Below, piece by piece: positions 1,714 to 42,780 of a DNA stretch of 64,000 nucleotides. The stretch is from the NCBI RefSeq assembly GCF_005049105.1, contig NZ_SUKA01000008.1, positions 1 through 64,000 on the forward strand, given 5' to 3'. A model generated the notes under the pieces. That model saw only the letters and a program-made list of their open reading frames with translations, was not told the origin of the DNA and made no database searches. A program made the position numbers and the translations under genes. The stretch is from Sphingobacterium alkalisoli. GTDB taxonomy: Bacteria > Bacteroidota > Bacteroidia > Sphingobacteriales > Sphingobacteriaceae. Every line of letters begins with the position of its first letter. Within the stretch, counting starts at the first letter, position 1.

Positions 1714-2238
1714 ATGGAACATATTAAAGCGATAAAGGCGGATAACCATCAAGTTTTTAGTTGGGTGTATGAGCAGTATCATCAGCAGATATATGGTTTC
1801 ATCATGCAACGCACCCGTTCCGAATACATTGCTGAAGAAGTCACTCAGCTCACCTTTATCAAATTCTGGAAACAACGAAACATACTAAACGAAGAGTTGG
1901 ACGTTAACGTTCAACTCTTCGGTATGGCGCGTCAGGTCATGATCGACCTTCTTCGCAAAGAAGCTACCCGTTTCAAATACGAGGGCGAATCGGCAACCAC
2001 CCCCTTTACAGATAGTTTGATCGATGCCATAGAAAGCAGAGATTTACTGCAGTTGATGGAGCAAGACATCCAAAATATGCCGAAGATGCGGCGTCTCGTG
2101 TTTGAACTAAGCCGTAAGCAGGGACTGTCCCACAAAGAAATTGCCCACCTGTACTCCATCTCTCCAAAAACTGTCGAACAGCATATTGGCAAAGCCTTAA
2201 TGCAGCTCAAGCAGCATCTGTATTCCATTATGCTCTAA
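1714..2238 (+). CDS. ECF-type RNA polymerase sigma factor
   Basis: Sigma-70 family protein with regions 2 and 4 only (about 174 residues). Region 2 includes the stretch around YIAEEVTQLTFIKFWKQR. Region 4 contains the helix-turn-helix LSHKEIAHLYSISPKTVEQH near the C-terminus. The frame is open back to a GTG at 1690, but that start would lie upstream of the -7 box at 1699-1706, so the ATG at 1714 is preferred. It is followed by a FecR anti-sigma gene and a SusC/SusD pair, the usual arrangement in which surface substrate binding releases the sigma factor to transcribe the transport operon. Identity is firm; the target promoter is inferred. Confidence 0.92.
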   Translation: MEHIKAIKADNHQVFSWVYEQYHQQIYGFIMQRTRSEYIAEEVTQLTFIKFWKQRNILNEELDVNVQLFGMARQVMIDLLRKEATRFKYEGESATTPFTDSLIDAIESRDLLQLMEQDIQNMPKMRRLVFELSRKQGLSHKEIAHLYSISPKTVEQHIGKALMQLKQHLYSIML

Positions 2239-2353
2239 ACTGCGTAAAGTTTCACTACCATATTTATTTCCTAATCAATAGTCGCCCACTCCCCCCTATA
2301 TTAAATAATTGTTAAGCAACTAGGGATACCGTTCTGAGCGCCGTAATGTTAGT

Positions 2354-3475
2354 ATGAAGTTCGGAAAGAAGAAGCCAAGCGATCAAGGTGATCGTCTTAA
2401 CAAACAGCAGCAGCTACGTCAGAAAATATGGAAAGATCCTTCTATTATTGAAGATATTTTTGCAGACAAGGAGTGGCATTCCTTTGAAGGAAATCCGTCG
2501 CAAAATATACCCTCTAACAAGATGGCAAAGCACATCAACGAGGAGATAAACCACGAAAAAGAAAAACAAGAATGCAACGAGCGCCGCAGCTATCGTCTAC
2601 GGCAATTTACACGTTATGCGGCAGCCGCCGCGGTGTTAGTATTGCTGTCGTTCAATCTGTGGCGTTGGGCTACACAACATCAAGATACAGCAGCACCATC
2701 TTTTGTCGAGCAGCACGAAAATTCACGCGTAGCGCAAGATAGTATTTGGATTTCAGTCACAAACAGCGAACAGCAGGTGCAGGTACTCACACTACCCGAT
2801 CAATCTACCGTCCGACTCTTTGCGCAAAGTAGGGTGCGCTATACGCGTGAATTTTCAAGCCACAGCCGCGATATTTATCTAGATGGTAAAGCCTATTTCT
2901 CCGTTGCCAAAGATGCGTCACGTCCTTTTAGCGTATATGCTGGCGAAACGAAGACGACTGCCTTAGGTACGTCATTCACCATTGATACACGTACTAAATC
3001 CAAGTATACAACTGTAGAGCTCCATACGGGGAAAGTCGTTGTCGCCTCTCGTGCACAAATTCCCGCTTTCGACAATATAGTCCTAAACAAGGCAGGCGAG
3101 TCCCTTTCCTTTGACACAAATATGCGTCTCGTAGCACATAAGCAAGGTATCCCTAAAAAACCAACAACTCTAGCAGCAACACCTGCCGCTGAAAAAAACA
3201 AAGCTTCCCTGCTTCAAATGGATAATATTCCATTGCCAGAGGTGTTTGCAGCACTTGCAGCTGCTTACGATACATCGATAAAAATAGGAGAACAAAATAT
3301 CGCAAAAATTCAATATACCGGCAGCATTAATCCACAACGCGAAACAATACAAGACGTGCTGACAGTGATTTGTCTAATCAATGACCTGCGTTATGTTACG
3401 GAAGCCGATGGCTCTTACACGATCTATCATCAAGACGAAAACACAAAAGAAGAAAAAATAAAAGAAAACCTATAA
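2354..3475 (+). CDS. FecR-family anti-sigma factor
   Basis: 373 residues. A charged cytoplasmic N-terminal part of about 85 residues is followed by one membrane segment (about 88-105), a periplasmic FecR beta domain (about 140-235; LPDQSTVRLFAQSRVRYTRE and LDGKAYFSVA) and a C-terminal DUF4974/STN-like domain (about 285-360). The protein should hold the upstream sigma factor at the inner membrane and receive a signal from the outer-membrane SusC partner through its periplasmic part. The 115-base gap after the sigma gene could hold a sigma-dependent promoter, but I could not define one. SusC follows after 12 bases, so fecR, susC and susD are probably co-transcribed. Confidence 0.93.
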   Translation: MKFGKKKPSDQGDRLNKQQQLRQKIWKDPSIIEDIFADKEWHSFEGNPSQNIPSNKMAKHINEEINHEKEKQECNERRSYRLRQFTRYAAAAAVLVLLSFNLWRWATQHQDTAAPSFVEQHENSRVAQDSIWISVTNSEQQVQVLTLPDQSTVRLFAQSRVRYTREFSSHSRDIYLDGKAYFSVAKDASRPFSVYAGETKTTALGTSFTIDTRTKSKYTTVELHTGKVVVASRAQIPAFDNIVLNKAGESLSFDTNMRLVAHKQGIPKKPTTLAATPAAEKNKASLLQMDNIPLPEVFAALAAAYDTSIKIGEQNIAKIQYTGSINPQRETIQDVLTVICLINDLRYVTEADGSYTIYHQDENTKEEKIKENL

Positions 3476-3487
3476 GTAAAAAAAATC

Positions 3488-6400
3488 ATGTTTAACAAAC
3501 CGTATCAATTTAAAAAAAGTGTGTGGTTTCTAGCGCTGTTGGCCGCAGGTCTTTCCCAGGCAAAGGCACAGCAAGAGCAAGTAAAAGGAGCAACACAAGA
3601 CGAATCCGGAAAATTCATTTCTGGTGTGAGCATCAAGGCCGTTCATGGTGGCTCGGGTAAAGCGTTCACGACAAGCTCTACCGACAAAGGACTGTTTTCT
3701 TTTCGCACTTTACCCGAAGGCGGCCCTTACCAATTTATCTTTACCTCGGTAGGCTTTCAGCCCGATACACTCTCAGGTTATACCATACAACAGGGAAAAC
3801 CATTAGCCTTAAGTGTGAAACTCTCTCCCATCACGACCGACCTAGAAGAGGTGGTGATCGGATATGGCCGGATTGCTAGAAAAGACGTTACCAGTTCCAT
3901 CACAACGGTTCAGGCAGAAGATATGAATGTAGGTGTTTTTACATCACCTGCACAAATGTTACAGGGTAAAGTACCGGGATTAACTATATCGACCAATAAT
4001 AGCAATCCCAATGCCACACCATCCGTTAGTTTACGCGGAGCTTCTACATTACGAAGTGGTGAAGCTATGGAGCCATACTATGTGATCGATGGTGTACCAG
4101 GTGCTTCCCTTGCACTTGTTGCTCCCGACGACGTTCAATCTATTGATGTCTTACGCGATGCATCAGCAACTGCCATCTATGGATCCAAAGCAGCTAACGG
4201 TGTTATAATTGTGACAACCAAACGAGGTAAGACTGGTCAAACCAGCATCAATTATAATGGTTATTTATCCCTAGATCGGGTAGCTAAGCGTTACGAAATG
4301 ATGAACGCGGAGCAACATCGAAATTTCGTACTTGAGAATGGATATTCGCTGGAACCAGCAGATGATCTCGGTGCCGATACCGACTGGCAACGTGAAGTAG
4401 AGCGTACTGGCGTATCTAACAATCACAATATATCCATCTTGGGAGGAGCAGAGAAAACGCAATATAGTGTGAGTCTCAACACGATCAAAAACAATGGAGT
4501 AATTAAGGGTACTGACATGGGGCGCCAGATAGGCCGAGGCTTTTTACAGACCAAAGCCTTAGATGATCGCCTAACTGCGTCATTCAATATAAATACCAGT
4601 ATCACCAAGCAAAATGATGTACTGGCGCTTGATCAAGGCTTGAGTGTCTATGATGCAATGTACTACTATCTGCCGGTATCTCCAGTACGCAGAGCAGACG
4701 GATCCTGGTTTGAAACTCCAGACCGATCGCAGTACGCCAATCCTGTTTCGTTGATTGAAGAGAACACCAATTTCTCGAAAACAAAAGTGATACAGGCGCA
4801 CGCCAAAGTCGGCTACGAAATTTTACCAAGTCTGACGTATAATATCGACCTCTCTATGCAGAACAGACAGTTTAACAATGCACAGTATTACTCAAGTCTA
4901 TCTATGGCGGCAAGAGGTCAAAATGGTAGATCTATACGTGCAGCCGTAGAAGATGAGCGTAAGGTCATGGAGATGAACCTAAGTTACGACAAAACTTTCA
5001 ACGACCTACATAAGATTTCGGCATTGGCTGGTTATTCCTGGGAAGAAAACAACAATAACGACGGTTTCCAGCTAACAACGTCTGATTACTATGATGACGA
5101 AGTAGGATACTACAACCCAGGAATGGCGAATGTAGTGGATATGTTGGGATTTGGTCCATATTATCTTTCCACCTTACGTATGATTTCGGTATACGGGCGC
5201 TTAAATTATTCGTATAACAGTAAATACCTTTTCCAAGCAACCGTACGACGCGATGGATCCTCTGCCTTCGGTGCCAACAACCGATGGGCGACTTTCCCCT
5301 CGGTATCGGCAGCTTGGCGTCTTTCCGAAGAAGACTTTATTCGGAAAGCGGGTATTTTCGACGATCTGAAATTACGAGCCGGCTATGGTGTAAGTGGAAA
5401 CTCACTCGGCTTTGATGCATTTACCGCGCAGCGGGTCTTTGGGGCGACTAGGAATTTCTTTGACTATGTTATCGATGAGGACAAAGTGACTCCACTTCGT
5501 ACGCTTGCTGCACTTCGCAATAGCAATCCGAATCTCAAATGGGAAACTACGAGTATGATTAACCTAGGATTAGATTTCGGCTTCTTACGTAACCGCTTGA
5601 CGGGTTCAGTAGAAGTTTATCAAAAGAAAACCAGTGATTTAATCTATGATTATCAGGTCAGCTTGTCCAAATATATTTTCCCAATACTAACAGCCAATGT
5701 GGGCGAGATTGAAAACCGTGGTATTGAACTTACCCTGAATGGAAAGGTAATAGACAAAGAAAACGTCAAATGGAATACAGGCGTGGTCTTATCCCATAAT
5801 ACCAACAAAGTGGTTAGCATTGCCAACGAAGAGTTCACGAGAGACTTTATTGAACTTTCCGATCTAGGAGGAGCAGGACAAACTGGTATATCCCAACAGC
5901 GGCTAACACCGGGTGCACCGATAGGCCAATTCTATACTTGGGAATGGGCGGGATACAACGAGGATGGTATATCGGTATTTAATGAACGTGATGAGCAGAC
6001 GGGAGAACTTACCGGAGGCACCACCGCTACACCGCAGCGCAAAGATCAAACAGTAACCGGAAGTCCACAACCAAAATTGGTCCTCGGTTGGAATAATACT
6101 TTTACTTATAAAAATCTGTCTCTGACAGGAATGTTCCAGGGGGCTTTTGAACAACAGATTATGAATGCAACACGTGCGCGCCATTCCAATGTTTTCGGAA
6201 ATGCAGGACAAAAGAACTTGTTAGCTAGTGTACTTGAAACGGAAAAACCAAGAGATATTAATTCGCACTACTTGTCCGATCGCTATTTGGAAAACGGCAG
6301 CTTTTTAAGACTAGCTTATCTAACGTTAGCTTATACCCTACCGATCAAAAACTTACCGATCAAAAATTTGAGAGTCTATACTACGATGAACAATGTTTTT

Positions 6401-6526
6401 GTATTGACGAAATACAAAGGTATTGATCCCGAAGTAGGACTCGGAGGATTAACACCAGGAATTGACAATCGCCAAACGTATCCACGCACACGTACGTTTA
6501 TGTTTGGGCTTAACTTTAACTTATAA
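3488..6526 (+). CDS. SusC/RagA-family TonB-linked outer-membrane receptor
   Basis: 1012 residues. A signal peptide ends near QAKA|Q (about residue 28). It is followed by a carboxypeptidase-D-like regulatory beta-sandwich (about 30-115), a TonB-box-like LEEVVIGYG and plug domain (about 118-245, with YYVIDGVPGAS and DASATAIYGSKAANGVI), then a 22-strand barrel ending in an aromatic/hydrophobic strand (FMFGLNFNL). It imports a substrate captured by the SusD lipoprotein encoded 18 bases downstream. There is no N-terminal STN signalling domain before the regulatory domain, although the gene follows a FecR/sigma pair. The substrate is not readable from the sequence; the downstream acid phosphatase suggests a phosphorylated compound. 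Confidence 0.95.
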   Translation: MFNKPYQFKKSVWFLALLAAGLSQAKAQQEQVKGATQDESGKFISGVSIKAVHGGSGKAFTTSSTDKGLFSFRTLPEGGPYQFIFTSVGFQPDTLSGYTIQQGKPLALSVKLSPITTDLEEVVIGYGRIARKDVTSSITTVQAEDMNVGVFTSPAQMLQGKVPGLTISTNNSNPNATPSVSLRGASTLRSGEAMEPYYVIDGVPGASLALVAPDDVQSIDVLRDASATAIYGSKAANGVIIVTTKRGKTGQTSINYNGYLSLDRVAKRYEMMNAEQHRNFVLENGYSLEPADDLGADTDWQREVERTGVSNNHNISILGGAEKTQYSVSLNTIKNNGVIKGTDMGRQIGRGFLQTKALDDRLTASFNINTSITKQNDVLALDQGLSVYDAMYYYLPVSPVRRADGSWFETPDRSQYANPVSLIEENTNFSKTKVIQAHAKVGYEILPSLTYNIDLSMQNRQFNNAQYYSSLSMAARGQNGRSIRAAVEDERKVMEMNLSYDKTFNDLHKISALAGYSWEENNNNDGFQLTTSDYYDDEVGYYNPGMANVVDMLGFGPYYLSTLRMISVYGRLNYSYNSKYLFQATVRRDGSSAFGANNRWATFPSVSAAWRLSEEDFIRKAGIFDDLKLRAGYGVSGNSLGFDAFTAQRVFGATRNFFDYVIDEDKVTPLRTLAALRNSNPNLKWETTSMINLGLDFGFLRNRLTGSVEVYQKKTSDLIYDYQVSLSKYIFPILTANVGEIENRGIELTLNGKVIDKENVKWNTGVVLSHNTNKVVSIANEEFTRDFIELSDLGGAGQTGISQQRLTPGAPIGQFYTWEWAGYNEDGISVFNERDEQTGELTGGTTATPQRKDQTVTGSPQPKLVLGWNNTFTYKNLSLTGMFQGAFEQQIMNATRARHSNVFGNAGQKNLLASVLETEKPRDINSHYLSDRYLENGSFLRLAYLTLAYTLPIKNLPIKNLRVYTTMNNVFVLTKYKGIDPEVGLGGLTPGIDNRQTYPRTRTFMFGLNFNL

Positions 6527-6544
6527 CTGAGGGGAAAATTACAG

Positions 6545-8197
6545 ATGAAATCAAAATTTCTTATTCGCTTGTTTTCAATGTCGGCATTGGCGCTCACAGT
6601 AGCTTCATGTACTGACCTAGAAATAGATATAAAATCACAAAACACCGTATTTCCGGACTCGGAACGGGCAGCAGAAGCTATATTAGCCGATGTTTACGCA
6701 GCCTATCGCGGCGCACTAGGTCGTGACCATTGGATGGCGCAGACACTATCAGCAGATGAAGCCGTTAGCGTAGCAATGGGTACAGATTATTATGATGGAG
6801 GTCGATACCGTGAGCTACATGTGCATAATTGGACTCCAGACAATAGCATAATACCTGGCATGTGGAATTCAGCGTCGGTCGGTATTACCTTAGCCAATAA
6901 TGCCATTGTTCTTTTCGGTGAAGAAAGACCGAACCTAACAGCGCCGGCGCGGGCTATTCGTGCCTACTATTATTTTATCCTTATGGATAATTTTGGAGCT
7001 GCCCCGCTAATCACTGCACCTGTAGATCAAGTTCCCAACCGAACAAGTCGTGCCGAGATCTGTCGTTTTATTGAATCAGAATTGTTAGACGTTATCGATT
7101 TGCTACCGACTGAAGTATCCATCGCAACGTATGGAAAATCAACAAAATATATGGCACAAGCACTGCTTGCCAAACTGTATCTCAACTGGGCAGTCTATAC
7201 CACGGAAGATGTGGCTAATTATAATCCCGCAGTACCAAACGAAAAATTAAATCAAGTGGTGGCAATGTGTGACGGCATCATTGAGTCCGGGAAATTTAAC
7301 CTGAGCAGCCATAAGTTCATGGAAAAATTCCGTCCCAACAATGGCTATCAAATCAAGGACTTTATTTTTGCAGTACCTTACGACCGGGAAAAACAGCAAG
7401 GTATGACTTACTCCCGTTTCTGGATCCACCGTAGCGCACAAAACCAGTTTGCTGCTTTGCCACAAAGTGTAGGAGGCACCTTCCGTGTATTACCGAGTTA
7501 TCTTGATAAGTTTAATCTGCCGGGAGACGAACGCAATCAATCTTACATTGGAGGTAAGCAGTACTATTGGTCGAACTACACCGAAGACACAAATCGTCCT
7601 TTCTTGATAAGGACCTCCAAACGTGGTATCGATCAAGATTACACCGCTGCAGACGCTGATGAACAATTCGACTGGCAATTGGAGACCACAAACGATATCG
7701 TGCTACGCCCCGATGGTGCGGCGACGTTGAATGTGGGTAACGATCAAAAAGGGCGATCCATGGGCTATCGTTCCATCAAGTTTTATATGGATGTCGCCGT
7801 TACTTCTGCCAATCAACGTAACCAGAGTAACGATGTACCTATCTTCCGATACGCCGATATACTGCTTATGAAAGCAGAGGCTATCCTGCGTGGCGCTGCA
7901 CCTACAAACGGCGAAACACCGCAATCGCTTATCAATCAGATCCGTGCCTATGTAAACGCACCGTTACTCGCTACCGCCCCAACCTTGGAGGACATACTTG
8001 ATGAACGTGCTCGCGAATTTGCTGATGAGTCCTGGCGTCGAAATGATTTGATCCGCTACGGAAAATTCGAGGATAGTTGGGGATTCCGATCTTTATATCC
8101 CGCTGGCGCAAACGAGAAATACCGCAGAATCTTCCCGGTACCCACTAGTGTACTGAATGTGAATACACACTGGGACCAGAACAACGGTTATCAATAG
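6545..8197 (+). CDS. SusD/RagB-family surface lipoprotein
   Basis: 550 residues. The signal peptide ends in a lipobox with Cys22 (TVASC), followed by the typical mature start TDLEID. The N-terminal TPR-like half carries the family pattern around DVYAAYRG and RAIRAYYYFILMDNFGAAPL. The C-terminal half has the usual segments RYADILLMKAEAILRG and ILDERAREFADESWRRNDLIR. It forms the lid of the SusC transporter and binds substrate at the cell surface. It lies 18 bases after susC and 9 bases before the phosphatase gene, so the three should be one transcript. Confidence 0.95.
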   Translation: MKSKFLIRLFSMSALALTVASCTDLEIDIKSQNTVFPDSERAAEAILADVYAAYRGALGRDHWMAQTLSADEAVSVAMGTDYYDGGRYRELHVHNWTPDNSIIPGMWNSASVGITLANNAIVLFGEERPNLTAPARAIRAYYYFILMDNFGAAPLITAPVDQVPNRTSRAEICRFIESELLDVIDLLPTEVSIATYGKSTKYMAQALLAKLYLNWAVYTTEDVANYNPAVPNEKLNQVVAMCDGIIESGKFNLSSHKFMEKFRPNNGYQIKDFIFAVPYDREKQQGMTYSRFWIHRSAQNQFAALPQSVGGTFRVLPSYLDKFNLPGDERNQSYIGGKQYYWSNYTEDTNRPFLIRTSKRGIDQDYTAADADEQFDWQLETTNDIVLRPDGAATLNVGNDQKGRSMGYRSIKFYMDVAVTSANQRNQSNDVPIFRYADILLMKAEAILRGAAPTNGETPQSLINQIRAYVNAPLLATAPTLEDILDERAREFADESWRRNDLIRYGKFEDSWGFRSLYPAGANEKYRRIFPVPTSVLNVNTHWDQNNGYQ

Positions 8198-8206
8198 CAG
8201 ATAGAC

Positions 8207-9214
8207 ATGAAAAGAAGAGACTTTATGAAAAGTACCTTGGGCACGGCCCTTGGTGCTAGTCTTTCCGGCGTATCGCTGGCTAGTATGGCAGCCAACGCTG
8301 CTACGAAAATAGAGAGTGAAGATATCAATAGCCGTGCTTTGTTAAAAGATGAGTACGATCTGCATTTCCTAGCCATTGGCGACTGGGGTCGTAATGGGGC
8401 TGACCATCAGATACAGGTCGCTAAGCAAATGGGAAAATGGGCTACAGAACATCCTAATGATTTTATAATCTCAACGGGCGACAACTTCTACCCTTCGGGC
8501 GTAGTGAGTGAGCACGACCCCTTATGGCATTATTCCTTTGAGAATGTCTACACCGATTTCTCCTTGCAATGGGATTGGTACCCTATTTTGGGCAACCATG
8601 ATTATAAGTCGGATCCAGATGCGCAGGTACGCTACACTGCTATCAGTCGCCGATGGAAGATGCCGTCGCGCTACTACAGTAAAACATTTAAAATTAAGGA
8701 AGAAGCGGAGGTATTGATTGCGTTTATCGATACCAACCCCCTGGTACCTGAATTCTACCAGAACAGTGAGTATGGCCCGCATGTAGCCGGACAGCAACCC
8801 GAAAAGCAACTAGCTTGGTTAAACGAGTTACTTCAAACTTCGGATGCAAAATGGAAAATTGTGGTGGGACACCATCCGATCTACACGGCAGGGCCACGGA
8901 CCGACAACTATGATACATTGGCAGTCAGGAAAGTTTTACAACCTCTTTTAGAGAAACATCGTATTCCCTTATATCTATCGGGTCACGAGCATTCCATGCA
9001 ACATTTAAAAGTGCAGGAAAAACACTTTCATCAGTTCATCTCTGGTAGTGGATCGGAAGTAACTCCTGTCAAAAAAGGCGTAAATTACAGCCGATTTGAA
9101 GCTTCTACCTATGGCTTTATGTACTTCGCCATCAATAAAGAGCAATTGCAAGTGCAGTGCATCGATCACGAAGGAAAAGCGATCTATAGCAGCATCATTC
9201 CTTGGAATGCCTAG
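8207..9214 (+). CDS. Tat-exported purple acid phosphatase-type metallophosphoesterase
   Basis: 335 residues. The N-terminus MKRRDFMKSTLG is a twin-arginine signal with a hydrophobic stretch ending near ANAA. The metal-binding blocks of tartrate-resistant (purple) acid phosphatase appear in order: GDWG, GDNFYPSG (its Tyr is the Fe(III) ligand in this family), GNHDY, GHHPIYTAG and GHEHSMQHL. It probably hydrolyses phosphate esters in the periplasm or at the surface. The gene follows susD by 9 bases and is followed by a terminator, so it is the last gene of the SusC/SusD operon. The coupling suggests the locus takes up or processes a phosphorylated nutrient. Confidence 0.9.
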   Translation: MKRRDFMKSTLGTALGASLSGVSLASMAANAATKIESEDINSRALLKDEYDLHFLAIGDWGRNGADHQIQVAKQMGKWATEHPNDFIISTGDNFYPSGVVSEHDPLWHYSFENVYTDFSLQWDWYPILGNHDYKSDPDAQVRYTAISRRWKMPSRYYSKTFKIKEEAEVLIAFIDTNPLVPEFYQNSEYGPHVAGQQPEKQLAWLNELLQTSDAKWKIVVGHHPIYTAGPRTDNYDTLAVRKVLQPLLEKHRIPLYLSGHEHSMQHLKVQEKHFHQFISGSGSEVTPVKKGVNYSRFEASTYGFMYFAINKEQLQVQCIDHEGKAIYSSIIPWNA

Positions 9215-9234
9215 CTTCGCCGCGTGATACATTA

Positions 9235-9267
9235 AGCTCTCGAGGCGTAACACCTCGAGAGCTTTTC
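9235..9267 (+). terminator. Rho-independent terminator of the SusCD/phosphatase operon
   Basis: Perfect 11-base arms AGCTCTCGAGG (9235-9245) and CCTCGAGAGCT (9253-9263) enclose a 7-base loop and are followed by a short T run. Confidence 0.85.
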
Positions 9268-38240: not shown

Positions 38241-39239
38241 TTATTTCAAGTCAGTTAATTCCCATTTTAAAGTTAATGCAACGGGACAATGATCTGATAG
38301 CGGCTGTCCGTCGATTGTAGAAAAAACACCTTTATCCATCTTATATTGAAGGGGGTAAAACTTTAAATTAGGACTACTTCGGAAATATATTTTATCAATA
38401 CTTTCACAGCTATCCGTAATTGACAATTTTTCCGCAGGCATAAACGAATACCTAATAGACGGAAACTTTCCGTTATTTTGCAACAGCACCCAACAGTCAT
38501 CCAAACGTGTATGCTTTAGGAATTCATGCAACCTATCTCCCGAAAACGCATAACTGGCATTAAAATCACCCATTACCAGTAAAGGCTCATCCTTGGAATA
38601 CTCATTGATAAAAGCCGCCAATTGTTCTAAATTTTGTCGGCGCGCCTTGACGGCTGCAGCCGTATTTTGAGCGGTAGCATGTAAATTATACACATGTACA
38701 TAACTATCTTTAGCTAACTGTATCCGTGTAAAGGAAAATCCTTTGGGAGCAAGACAGTCTGTACCACTGCATGCTTCCCAGGCAATACGTTCGTGGAAAA
38801 TAATCGGGTATTTTGAAAGAGTATTTAACCCATCTCCAAAAGGGAGCCCTTTCATCGGCTCAGTACGATATATATGAGAATTCCCCGTTTGATAAAGCTC
38901 GTTATTATAACTGAAATCTTCCTGGACATTCACGATGTCATATCGATTCAGCTTTTGCCCGATCACTGAAATACTTGAAGCCCTTGATGTCGGAGCACTC
39001 GATAAAGGCTCAGGCAAACCGGCGATATTATACGTGATTATAGACAACTCTCCAATAGTATCCGTAGAAAGATCTACTGGAATTACACCGTGAAAAACCT
39101 GCTTTCTACTTGCTTCCTTGAAACCAAATCCGGCCCAGATACAAATACCGAAAACGAAAAAGACGACAAGATGTATATTCCATTTCTTTCGATTTGGATT
39201 ATAGTTTAAAATATAAAAATAAATAGACCTCGTATTCAT
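38241..39239 (-). CDS. Endonuclease/exonuclease/phosphatase-superfamily protein, exported or membrane-anchored
   Basis: 332 residues. One hydrophobic segment near the N-terminus (about 24-40; HLVVFFVFGICIWAGFGF). The EEP fold blocks are present: TYNIAGLP, NVQEDFSYN (catalytic Glu), YNLHATAQN, MGDFNAS and LSDHCPV (catalytic His). The family includes sphingomyelinases, inositol phosphatases and DNases; the form with N-terminal anchor and QED motif resembles secreted sphingomyelinase-like members. Sphingolipids are typical of these bacteria, so a lipid substrate is possible but unproved. It is divergent from the GT4 gene across a region with strong inverted repeats. Confidence 0.82.
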   Translation of the reverse strand: MNTRSIYFYILNYNPNRKKWNIHLVVFFVFGICIWAGFGFKEASRKQVFHGVIPVDLSTDTIGELSIITYNIAGLPEPLSSAPTSRASSISVIGQKLNRYDIVNVQEDFSYNNELYQTGNSHIYRTEPMKGLPFGDGLNTLSKYPIIFHERIAWEACSGTDCLAPKGFSFTRIQLAKDSYVHVYNLHATAQNTAAAVKARRQNLEQLAAFINEYSKDEPLLVMGDFNASYAFSGDRLHEFLKHTRLDDCWVLLQNNGKFPSIRYSFMPAEKLSITDSCESIDKIYFRSSPNLKFYPLQYKMDKGVFSTIDGQPLSDHCPVALTLKWELTDLK

Positions 39240-39330: not shown

Positions 39331-39349
39331 ATTAAACTTATATCATATT

Positions 39350-39365
39350 CATAAAATCTTAATAT
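39350..39365 (+). repeat. Third copy of the CATAAAATCTTAATAT element
   Basis: Identical over 16 bases to 39317-39332, with a 33-base period. Together with the inverted repeat this makes three binding-site-like copies ahead of the GT4 operon. Confidence 0.6.
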
Positions 39366-39423
39366 ATCATTAGCAATAAAAAAACATCGGAATTTTACCT
39401 TTATGAAATGAAAGCTTTTAAAG

Positions 39424-40599
39424 ATGAAAAGAGTTGCTTTTTTTGCCGAAATTTTAATTAAAGATTTTGACGGAGCGTCCCGTACCATGTTTCAATTAAT
39501 CGATAGATTAGACGCCAGTGCCATGGAGTACTTTTTCATCTACGGAAAAGGTCCCGAGACTTTTCGTCATTACCTCTCCTATCGTGTACCGTCCATTAAC
39601 ATACCCGTTAATGCAGATTATAGCTTAGCCCTACCCTTTATGGTAAAAAAGAACCTAGAACAAGTTTTAGACAATTTTGCGCCAGATGCAATCCACATTT
39701 CTACACCATCTCCTCTGGGATATTATGCCCTGAAATATGCTAAAAGGAGAAATATTCCGGTACTGACCATCTATCACACTCACTTTATCTCCTACATCCC
39801 TTATTATCTCCGGCATGCACCATTGTTCATTAAGATGGTAGAAAACTGGATTCAACACACGATGCGAAAGTTTTACAATTCGTGTAACCAGCTATATGTC
39901 CCTTCAATTGCTATGATACATGAACTTGAAAATCTTGGAATAGCACGGGAACAGATGACGCTTTGGCAACGAGGCATAGACTTAGAGCTCTTTTCGACAA
40001 AAAAAAGGGACATCACCTATATTCAACATATTACAAAAAATAAAAAACCGAATATCTTATTCGCAAGTAGACTTGTTTGGGAAAAAAATATCCAAACTTT
40101 AATCGATATCTATACGTACATGGAATCCCAGAATATGGATTATAATTTTATTGTAGCCGGCGATGGTACAGCAAAAAAAGAAGCGATGGCCCAAATGCCA
40201 AATGCGCTATTTTTAGGCAAACTAAATCATGAGGAACTTTCTAAAGTATATGCTTCTTCGGATGTCTTTCTATTCACTTCGGTTTCCGAAACTTATGGCA
40301 ATGTCGTTATTGAAGCGATGGCCTCAGGTCTTCCCTGCGTGATTGCAAATGGCGGAGGAAGCGGGGACCTGATCAACCATGGGCAAAACGGATTCAAATG
40401 TACACCGAATTGCCCTAAAGAATATGCGTATTTCATTCAGCGTCTAATGGAGCAACCTATTATTTATAAGGATATACAACTTGCTGGATTTAACTATGTG
40501 CAACAATTGGATTGGGATAATCTCGCACATCGCTATTTTTCCGATATGCATTTACTCGCGAATCTACCACAAGCACAACTAGCATGGGTTACAAGTTGA
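39424..40599 (+). CDS. Glycosyltransferase family 4
   Basis: 391 residues, GT-B fold. The N-terminal half has ILIKDFDGASRTMFQLID; the C-terminal nucleotide-sugar half has ILFASRLVWEKN and the EX7E motif SETYGNVVIEAMASGLP. It resembles the MgtA/SQD2-like branch that transfers a sugar to a lipid or lipid-linked acceptor in the cytoplasm. Its end overlaps the start of the flippase-like gene by 16 bases, so these genes are translationally coupled. Confidence 0.88.
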   Translation: MKRVAFFAEILIKDFDGASRTMFQLIDRLDASAMEYFFIYGKGPETFRHYLSYRVPSINIPVNADYSLALPFMVKKNLEQVLDNFAPDAIHISTPSPLGYYALKYAKRRNIPVLTIYHTHFISYIPYYLRHAPLFIKMVENWIQHTMRKFYNSCNQLYVPSIAMIHELENLGIAREQMTLWQRGIDLELFSTKKRDITYIQHITKNKKPNILFASRLVWEKNIQTLIDIYTYMESQNMDYNFIVAGDGTAKKEAMAQMPNALFLGKLNHEELSKVYASSDVFLFTSVSETYGNVVIEAMASGLPCVIANGGGSGDLINHGQNGFKCTPNCPKEYAYFIQRLMEQPIIYKDIQLAGFNYVQQLDWDNLAHRYFSDMHLLANLPQAQLAWVTS

Positions 40600-41594
40600 G
40601 AATTCAGAAAAAACATTTGAAATTAATCCTTCTTTTTAGTGTGCTGGCTTTCATTGGTGTTTTCATTTGGAAAACTGATCTCACAGCTGTCGCCAAGGAA
40701 ATCAACAACATAGGCTTCCGTGTTATATATATTTTCGCGTGTACTTTTTGTGCCTACCTCTTGGGAACTTGGGGCTGGCGGGCATGTTTAGGAGCTGATA
40801 AAAAGAAAATCAGCATATCGCAACTTTTTATTGTGCGTCAAATCGGTGAAACGGTAGGATTGTATAATCCTACAAGTGTGGTAGCAGGTGATTTATTCAA
40901 AGTGGAGCTGCTTAAACGATATGGCATTAACACTCAAATCGGACTCAATTCCGTTCTAATTTCGCGCATTACAGCTGTGCTTTCACAAATTCTGTTATTT
41001 TTATCGACGATGTTATGGCTACTTCTATCGCCCCTTAATACTAGAATCTCAAATCTATTTGGTATTTGGTTCTATATACTCATTGGTGTATTGATTGTTG
41101 CCAAAATAGCGCTATTTGTGTGGCTAGGGACGAGTAAACGTTTCAAAAGGCCCCTTGTGAACAACAACGGATCTGCATGGAAACGAATAAGTGACCACAT
41201 CAATAGTTCATTATTTGATATCAAATTTTTTTTTCAAAATGATAAGAGGGCGTTCTGGTGTTCATATTTTTTATTCCTTCTACATTGGATCGTTGGGAGT
41301 TTCGAGTTTTATCTCATTCTACGTTTTCTCGGATACCATGTCACCGCATTACATGGGCTATTCTTAGATATGTACAGCATCACATTTAAAAGTCTTGGAG
41401 CTTTCATTCCTGGTCAATTAGGGATAGAAGAATTGGGAAACAAGCTTGCATTATCAACCATAGGTATAGCAAGCGTAAGCCTATGGATTACAGTTTCTCT
41501 CCTACGGCGCACACGTCAATTATTTTGGATCTCGATCGGATTCATTTTATATTTTCTGATCAAAAAAGATGTTGCTAATGTTACCACAGCCTGA
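40584..41594 (+). CDS. Lysylphosphatidylglycerol-synthase TM-region/UPF0104 family membrane protein
   Basis: 336 residues with about eight hydrophobic segments. The family pattern of the MprF/AglD membrane domain is seen, including GETVGLYNPTSVVAGDLFK and the late PGQLGIEELGNKLA. MprF-type domains move modified lipids across the inner membrane. Lying between two glycosyltransferases and overlapping both (16 and 26 bases), it is probably a flippase for the glycolipid they make. Confidence 0.85.
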   Translation: MGYKLRIQKKHLKLILLFSVLAFIGVFIWKTDLTAVAKEINNIGFRVIYIFACTFCAYLLGTWGWRACLGADKKKISISQLFIVRQIGETVGLYNPTSVVAGDLFKVELLKRYGINTQIGLNSVLISRITAVLSQILLFLSTMLWLLLSPLNTRISNLFGIWFYILIGVLIVAKIALFVWLGTSKRFKRPLVNNNGSAWKRISDHINSSLFDIKFFFQNDKRAFWCSYFLFLLHWIVGSFEFYLILRFLGYHVTALHGLFLDMYSITFKSLGAFIPGQLGIEELGNKLALSTIGIASVSLWITVSLLRRTRQLFWISIGFILYFLIKKDVANVTTA

Positions 41595-42780
41595 TTACGA
41601 AATCTTATTCGTCAGCCATAAGTACCCTCCCGCCACAGGTGGCATGGAAAAACAAAGCTTTGAACTCGTAGAAGGAATACGTAAACTTACTAAAACACAC
41701 CATATTCTATTCCAAAAAGAAGAATCAATTTTTTCATTTTTCTGGAAGCTCAATAAACGAATTCTAACAAAAATTAAAGCTCATCCCAATATCCGTCTGA
41801 TTCATTTTAATGATGGTCTGGTTGCGTCACTCTCTTTATATCATAAAGGTTATACACAACTAAAAAAAGTCGTTACCTTGCATGGTCTGGATGTGGTGTT
41901 CCCATTTCCTTACTTCCAGCATAAAATAGTTCCTCAATTCGAAAAATTCGACTTAATCATTGCGGTAAGCCATGCGACTGCTGATGCTGCTATCCGAAGA
42001 GGAATCTCTGCTGAAAAAGTAATTGTAATCCCTAATGGAGTAGATCATCGAATAACACAAGCAAATCACATTCTCAGCGATAAGGAAAAGTTGATGCAAA
42101 GATTTCCACAATTAAACTTAGATAAACCTTATCTACTTACATTAGGTCGCCCCGTGAAACGGAAAGGATTTTCCTGGTTTATAAAAAATGTACTTCCCTT
42201 GATACAACAAGACGTACAATTAATCCTGGTGGGTCCATTTAAAAAAAAAACACCCTTCTTTGAACGAATTCTTACAATTCTACCTAAAAAATATTATCAG
42301 CTGGTTACGCTATTTTTAGGCTACCCTTCAGATGCGAAGAACATTCGACATCTCATAAAACAACCTGACATTAACCCTCATGTAAAACATCTTGGAAAGG
42401 TGGCCTTCGAAGATCTTCAGCTCCTATTAGCAAATGCTACTGCATTCTTAATGCCTAATATCTATGTAGATGGCGATATGGAAGGCTTTGGTCTTGTCTG
42501 CTTAGAAGCTTCGCTTTCGGGCACGTTGGTACTCGCATCAGAAATCGAAGGCATCACCGATGCGATCAAGCATCATAAAAATGGAATTCTACTTACGAGC
42601 AAAGATCCAGTAGCATGGAGAAATCAAATTCAACAAATACTGTCTAATCCAGCCGATTACCAACAACTCGCCAATGAGTATAGAGAATACACTCTTCAAA
42701 ACTATAGCTGGGAAAAGATGGTGGCTGCCTATTTCGAAGTATTTGGGCGTATTACGACACCGAATGAATCTACCTCTTGA
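41569..42780 (+). CDS. Glycosyltransferase family 4
   Basis: 403 residues, GT-B fold. The N-terminal region SHKYPPATGGMEKQSFELVE is the typical acceptor-side loop. The C-terminal region has TLGRPVKRKGFSW and the EX7E-type DGDMEGFGLVCLEASLSGTL. The ATG at 41569 overlaps the flippase-like gene; an in-frame ATG at 41578 is also possible. It should add the second sugar of a glycolipid or oligosaccharide begun by the GT4 encoded at 39424. Confidence 0.88.
   Translation: MLLMLPQPDYEILFVSHKYPPATGGMEKQSFELVEGIRKLTKTHHILFQKEESIFSFFWKLNKRILTKIKAHPNIRLIHFNDGLVASLSLYHKGYTQLKKVVTLHGLDVVFPFPYFQHKIVPQFEKFDLIIAVSHATADAAIRRGISAEKVIVIPNGVDHRITQANHILSDKEKLMQRFPQLNLDKPYLLTLGRPVKRKGFSWFIKNVLPLIQQDVQLILVGPFKKKTPFFERILTILPKKYYQLVTLFLGYPSDAKNIRHLIKQPDINPHVKHLGKVAFEDLQLLLANATAFLMPNIYVDGDMEGFGLVCLEASLSGTLVLASEIEGITDAIKHHKNGILLTSKDPVAWRNQIQQILSNPADYQQLANEYREYTLQNYSWEKMVAAYFEVFGRITTPNESTS

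Follow-up and report, generated by a model that had tools for sequence, protein, structure and literature searches.

The PUS loci of Flavobacterium johnsoniae, PUSI and PUSII, combine a SusCD-like pair with phosphoesterases and have been proposed to import organic phosphorus, and the phytase of the same bacterium and its TonB-dependent transporter (TBDT) are induced by Pi depletion (PMC8115612). Judged by predicted gene content, the PUS loci are the closest described systems to a five-gene locus of Sphingobacterium alkalisoli placed near the start of the window (the whole stretch of DNA analysed, 64,000 nucleotides), which appears akin to them but with a different enzyme. Inositol phosphates constitute a large, poorly available soil phosphorus pool and, to our knowledge, the passage of organic phosphorus across the outer membrane of Bacteroidota is still largely inferred. 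The locus, whose features are given below, offers a testable pair of importer and enzyme with a probable ligand class.

1651 to 1706, + strand: promoter of the sigma gene, with a probable Pho box TTCATATAACC ATAACATTTTC TTAACA (three units 11 bp apart), a 20-nt spacer and the −7 element TACCTTTG; same layout in 15 loci
1714 to 2238, + strand: ECF sigma factor of the Bacteroidetes Sig70_bacteroi1 type (Sigma70_r2/r4 by Pfam and NCBIfam)
2301 to 2345, + strand: second conserved promoter, TTAAATAATTG-TTAAGCAACTAGGGATA-N13-CGTA with an 11-bp TTAA repeat, by the fecR start; in 13 of 17 sigma-type loci
2354 to 3475, + strand: FecR-type anti-sigma factor with FecR_C domain (FecR and FecR_C by Pfam/NCBIfam)
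3488 to 6526, + strand: SusC-type TonB-dependent outer-membrane transporter without STN domain (OMP_RagA_SusC, 687 bits)
6545 to 8197, + strand: SusD-type surface lipoprotein (SusD_RagB; lipobox cysteine at residue 22)
8207 to 9214, + strand: purple acid phosphatase (PAP) of TRAP type with Tat leader KRRDFMK (Metallophos)
9234 to 9264, + strand: intrinsic terminator-like hairpin with a 12-bp perfect stem and a short T run

The initial annotation had described five genes in one direction and a single terminator, with fecR, susC, susD and the PAP gene separated by 12, 18 and 9 bases, and the open reading frames, the Pfam/NCBIfam matches and the hairpin bear this out. The hairpin (region −22.6 kcal/mol, z −2.7) closes the cluster. 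The start of the sigma gene was set at ATG 1714 because its orthologues begin MEHIKAIK, and the sole loose spacing is the 115-nt gap that follows this gene. Since that gap carries its own conserved promoter, the locus probably comprises two transcription units, the second one starting between sigma and fecR. Neither glycoside hydrolase nor polysaccharide lyase genes were found within the locus, either in the list of open reading frames or by Pfam/NCBIfam, in agreement with the previous claim that the PAP, with a complete active-site set, is its only enzyme.

The PAP matches the mammalian purple acid phosphatase (TRAP) in phmmer with an E value of 8e-40, the alignment covering residues 52-333 at about 1e-39. 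It contains the five conserved motifs of TRAP-type PAPs and retains the seven metal ligands, D59, D92, Y95, N130, H222, H260 and H262; all of them are common to the mammalian structures (1UTE, 7OV8), from which the window enzyme differs in being bacterial, in its Tat leader and in its setting. TRAP-type PAPs are broad phosphomonoesterases with many phosphomonoesters as substrates, and hence the PAP by itself does not fix the substrate. The leader carries the twin-arginine motif KRRDFMK, and TatC is encoded in the genome. The description of the locus as built around a Tat-exported PAP is consistent with this predicted leader, but Tat export does not define the system, because the PAPs of the Pedobacter loci with myo-inositol oxygenase (MIOX) have a Sec-type leader.

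A scan of reference genomes retrieved 48 loci. Among them the same five genes occur in the same order in 16 other genomes, from Sphingobacterium, Pedobacter, Chitinophaga, Filimonas and one [Flexibacter] strain, with apparent interruptions of susC in L010 and of the PAP gene in L052; this recurrence indicates that the five-gene set is not due to chance. The sigma orthologues of the Sphingobacterium loci are 71-84% identical and lie in the same place. A search of 93 genomes of the genus found PAP orthologues of 69-86% identity (one of them a partial match, 77%) in 27 genomes besides that of S. alkalisoli, and a susD of the same kind precedes every one of them (27/27), so that the gene set is accessory yet coherent. 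Strains with the locus include S. faecium DSM 11690 and S. griseoflavum CGMCC 1.12966. The window SusD gave 252-964 bits in blast against the PAP-linked SusDs of Sphingobacteriaceae and Chitinophagaceae, versus at most 107 bits against the 19 other SusDs of its own genome, the nearest of which belongs to a locus with GH53, GH2 and GH92 (families read by eye). In the tree the PAP-linked SusDs form a single clade (95/87), apart from the other SusDs of the genome, the branches outside that clade being long and the deeper order unsure. Inside the clade, the window SusD groups as sister (96/85) with those encoded by the Pedobacter MIOX loci. The identity between them is only about 39%, and hence the ligands of the two kinds of loci may differ.

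Upstream of the −7 element of the sigma gene lies an 11-bp direct repeat (1651-1678). The layout common to 15 loci is roughly TTYACATAANC ATAACATTNCC TTAAYA, with units 11 bp apart, followed after 20 or 21 nt by TAnnTTTG, which we take to be the −7 element of Bacteroidetes promoters. In other bacteria, PhoB sites are 11-bp direct repeats placed just upstream of the promoter. A matrix was built from the 15 sigma-gene promoters of these loci alone and then run on other promoters; its null windows include the training sites, so its p values are only indicative. High scores were obtained at the phytase-TBDT operons (L116 37.3, L177 27.7, L112 26.8, L113 25.7, L115 24.3 and, in S. alkalisoli itself, L111 20.4), where the boxes of the genus have the same spacing as in the sigma-gene promoters, and upstream of the genome's best PhoB homologue (27.4). 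In a set of 257 same-genus upstream regions, 22 reached a score of 17 or more: seven sigma genes (six of which had gone into the matrix), 13 phytase operons from related species, not wholly independent of one another, and two others, namely a glycosyltransferase operon within the window and one further gene. Because loci were sampled starting from PAP and from candidate Pho genes, these counts show at which places the box occurs and not how many boxes there are in all. Across the 5.8-Mb genome a strict box pattern gave six matches versus four for the reversed-pattern control, so that only the identity of the genes is informative, and three of the six lie at the window locus, at the phytase operon and at the phoB-like gene. 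A pattern that included the −7 element, with four matches versus two in the control, was too strict to be informative; its other matches were L053-L055. Because the box is common to phytase operons and to the PhoB homologue, and has a PhoB-like 11-bp layout, the repeat at 1651-1678 is a probable Pho box. It would constitute a candidate Pho box for Sphingobacteriaceae, of which no earlier description was found in the literature searched. The box is absent from the MIOX loci (best matrix score 9.3), which indicates that the regulation is not common to the whole family.

Other boxes were seen along with these. A search for PhoX in a few genomes yielded one box before a PhoX-like stretch (L076, score 23.2). 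In Pedobacter sp. N36a (L017:9891-10001) a PAP gene without SusCD nevertheless has a box-like repeat upstream (20.7), and a strict-pattern box that may be due to chance precedes a GH1 beta-glucosidase-like gene (L135, G000:C20:109394). Within the window, a Pho-type box at 39348-39403 (+), with a score of 23.6, lies before the genes 39424-42780, which encode two GT4 glycosyltransferases and an LPG_synthase_TM-type membrane protein; this could be a phosphate-starvation glycolipid operon for lipid remodelling. It is adjoined on the opposite strand by a gene of the endonuclease/exonuclease/phosphatase family (38241-39239).

The PhoB candidate of S. alkalisoli, located at G000 C12:180631, was picked out through the common promoter box. 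It scores 219 bits with TIGR02154 (equivalog cut-off 296) and 215 bits with NF053854, and its neighbourhood showed no PhoR. A search for phoBR that started from the neighbours of OprP-type porins or from the best PhoB matches gave no clear phosphate-linked pair. No member of the PhoU family was found in the genome, which suggests that it lacks a standard Pst system; this agrees with the reported absence of PstSABC from plant-associated Bacteroidetes (PMC8115612).

The gap between sigma and fecR has a pattern of its own, TTAA-N7-TTAA, a GGG-containing block and CGTA close to the fecR start, in 13 of the 17 loci, with no match elsewhere in the 1.94 Mb read. The promoter at 2301-2345 is therein the putative target of the ECF sigma factor. 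As in Fec-type signalling, an ECF sigma factor and FecR are encoded with a transporter. However, Pfam detects no STN signalling domain in SusC, where CarboxypepD_reg begins at residue 32. The usual relay from ligand to FecR is therefore unsupported, and canonical signalling from TBDT to FecR was rejected for this locus. Instead, the system may be controlled by how much sigma factor the cell makes when phosphate is short. The initial annotation had noted neither the probable Pho box nor the inner promoter, nor had it remarked on the missing STN domain.

Clues to the substrate come from the relatives of the PAP, the tree of which was midpoint-rooted only. In all 15 cases, the gene of the nearest other PAP subfamily in the genus (39-44% identical) is flanked by a TonB receptor gene on one side and a gene for a PF02333-type phytase on the other. 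A related gene encoding about 540 aa stands ahead of six of these 15 TonB receptor-PAP-phytase operons (L166-L180); Pfam finds TPR repeats in that of L114, and some of these genes have a weaker box upstream. In 21 genomes, nearly all of Pedobacter, a MIOX gene is directly followed by SusC, SusD and PAP (examples in L023-L051, from Pedobacter and relatives, as L024:1026-16746). After the PAP, these loci encode a NagX/HGSNAT-type acetyltransferase, a GH89 alpha-N-acetylglucosaminidase and often a GH92 alpha-mannosidase, and they have a divergent LacI regulator, often a sodium symporter and sometimes GH28. Finally, a PI-PLC-C1 gene (PF16670) separates SusD from PAP in three genomes, two of Mucilaginibacter and the third a Cytophagales MAG (L021:8861-9937, L022 and L043:8817-9911). 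In heparan breakdown, the pair of acetyltransferase and GH89 handles terminal alpha-glucosamine. Together with the mannosidase and MIOX, it would make up a set fitted to the GlcN-inositol-phosphate core found in GPI anchors or GIPC lipids, and the Pedobacter-type MIOX loci may be read as a pathway that handles glycosyl-inositol-phosphates (GPI or GIPC headgroups). Since they have no box, they seem wired to carbon supply, and the window type to phosphate. A MIOX search in the S. alkalisoli genome gave no match, nor did any control genome, so that this negative carries little weight.

The conserved linkage and the promoter box common to phytase and phoB-like genes thus support the proposal that the SusCD pair is dedicated to importing a phosphorylated ligand. 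Among the substrates previously suggested, inositol phosphates gain weight from the phytase, MIOX and PI-PLC neighbours of close PAP relatives, and phospholipid-derived phosphoinositol glycans are possible ligands; nothing was found in favour of teichoic fragments, which were dropped, or of ordinary sugar phosphates. Taking these data together, we consider that the locus is probably a phosphate-starvation system for import and dephosphorylation, with an inositol phosphate as its most likely ligand. Within this reading, the phosphate-scavenging role appears well supported by the sequence comparisons, while the substrate, for which inositol phosphate is favoured, is the weakest step. In the model, low phosphate would activate a PhoB-type regulator that binds the 11-bp repeat at 1651-1678 and turns on the ECF sigma gene. 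The sigma factor, restrained by FecR, would then transcribe fecR-susC-susD-PAP from the promoter at 2301-2345. From what is known of these families, SusD on the cell surface would capture the ligand for TonB-dependent import by SusC. The ligand would most likely be an inositol phosphate, either a lower breakdown product of phytate or a phosphoinositol headgroup, from which the PAP, exported folded via Tat to the periplasm, would release phosphate, the nutrient sought.

The readings that compete with this one differ mainly in the ligand. The breadth of TRAP-type PAPs, the lack of any inositol enzyme in the window locus itself, and the PUS loci of F. johnsoniae, which use other phosphatases and for which uptake of phosphodiesters and further kinds of organic phosphorus has been proposed (PMC8115612), would all fit a phosphate-starvation system for a general or different organophosphate, such as sugar phosphates, nucleotides or phosphorylated oligosaccharides, the link with inositol being confined to relatives. 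Against this stand the three separate contexts of close PAP relatives that indicate inositol, and the box present both at the window locus and at the phytase operon of S. alkalisoli; we regard this reading as rather unlikely. It is still more improbable that the imported compounds are phosphoinositol glycans of eukaryotic membranes (GPI anchors, glycosyl inositol phosphoryl ceramides) instead of free inositol phosphates: SusCD complexes typically carry oligosaccharides, the Pedobacter relatives add the acetyltransferase, GH89, often GH92 and MIOX, and Mucilaginibacter adds PI-PLC, but the window locus has none of these glycosidases and the phytase link favours free inositol phosphates. That the locus is an ordinary carbohydrate uptake system with an accidental phosphatase neighbour, as could be argued from the glycan systems among the closest solved SusC and SusD structures, is very hard to reconcile with the lack of glycoside hydrolases, the invariant PAP linkage, the separate SusD clade and the Pho-type box. 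A carbohydrate utilisation locus was rejected on the absence of CAZymes and the separation of that clade.

Returning to the favoured reading, import of inositol phosphates under phosphate hunger, we would tentatively extend it to the relatives, in which the same importer core is seemingly under phosphate or carbon control. The SusCD-PAP family might serve Sphingobacteriaceae and their relatives as a dedicated route by which inositol phosphates or phosphoinositol glycans cross the outer membrane. Its window branch would respond to phosphate hunger through the Pho box and the ECF relay, and its Pedobacter branch, under LacI and with MIOX, NagX/HGSNAT, GH89 and often GH92, would use the inositol and the sugars of GPI- or GIPC-type headgroups as carbon.

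Compared with known systems, the locus has the SusC/SusD core and the ECF/FecR regulators of a classical polysaccharide utilisation locus, from which it differs in having no CAZyme and in its phosphate-type promoter box. With the phytase-TBDT operons (Fjoh_1367/1368 type), it has in common the promoter box in this genus and, as predicted, the release of phosphate from inositol phosphates. Those operons, which include a related PAP in 15 genomes of the genus, differ in having a stand-alone TonB receptor without SusD and a PF02333 phytase. No description of SusC/SusD combined with a purple acid phosphatase was found in the literature searched, which was partially covered, and the words 'purple acid' do not appear in the PUS paper (PMC8115612). 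The likeness of the window SusCD to PusCD1/2 is drawn here from gene content. Like PUSI and PUSII, the locus has a SusCD-like outer-membrane pair, with an ECF sigma factor (PUSI) or FecR (PUSII) in the cluster and co-located phosphoesterases in place of glycoside hydrolases; whereas the PUS loci encode PhoA1 or PDEs (PMC8115612), its single enzyme is a TRAP-type PAP.
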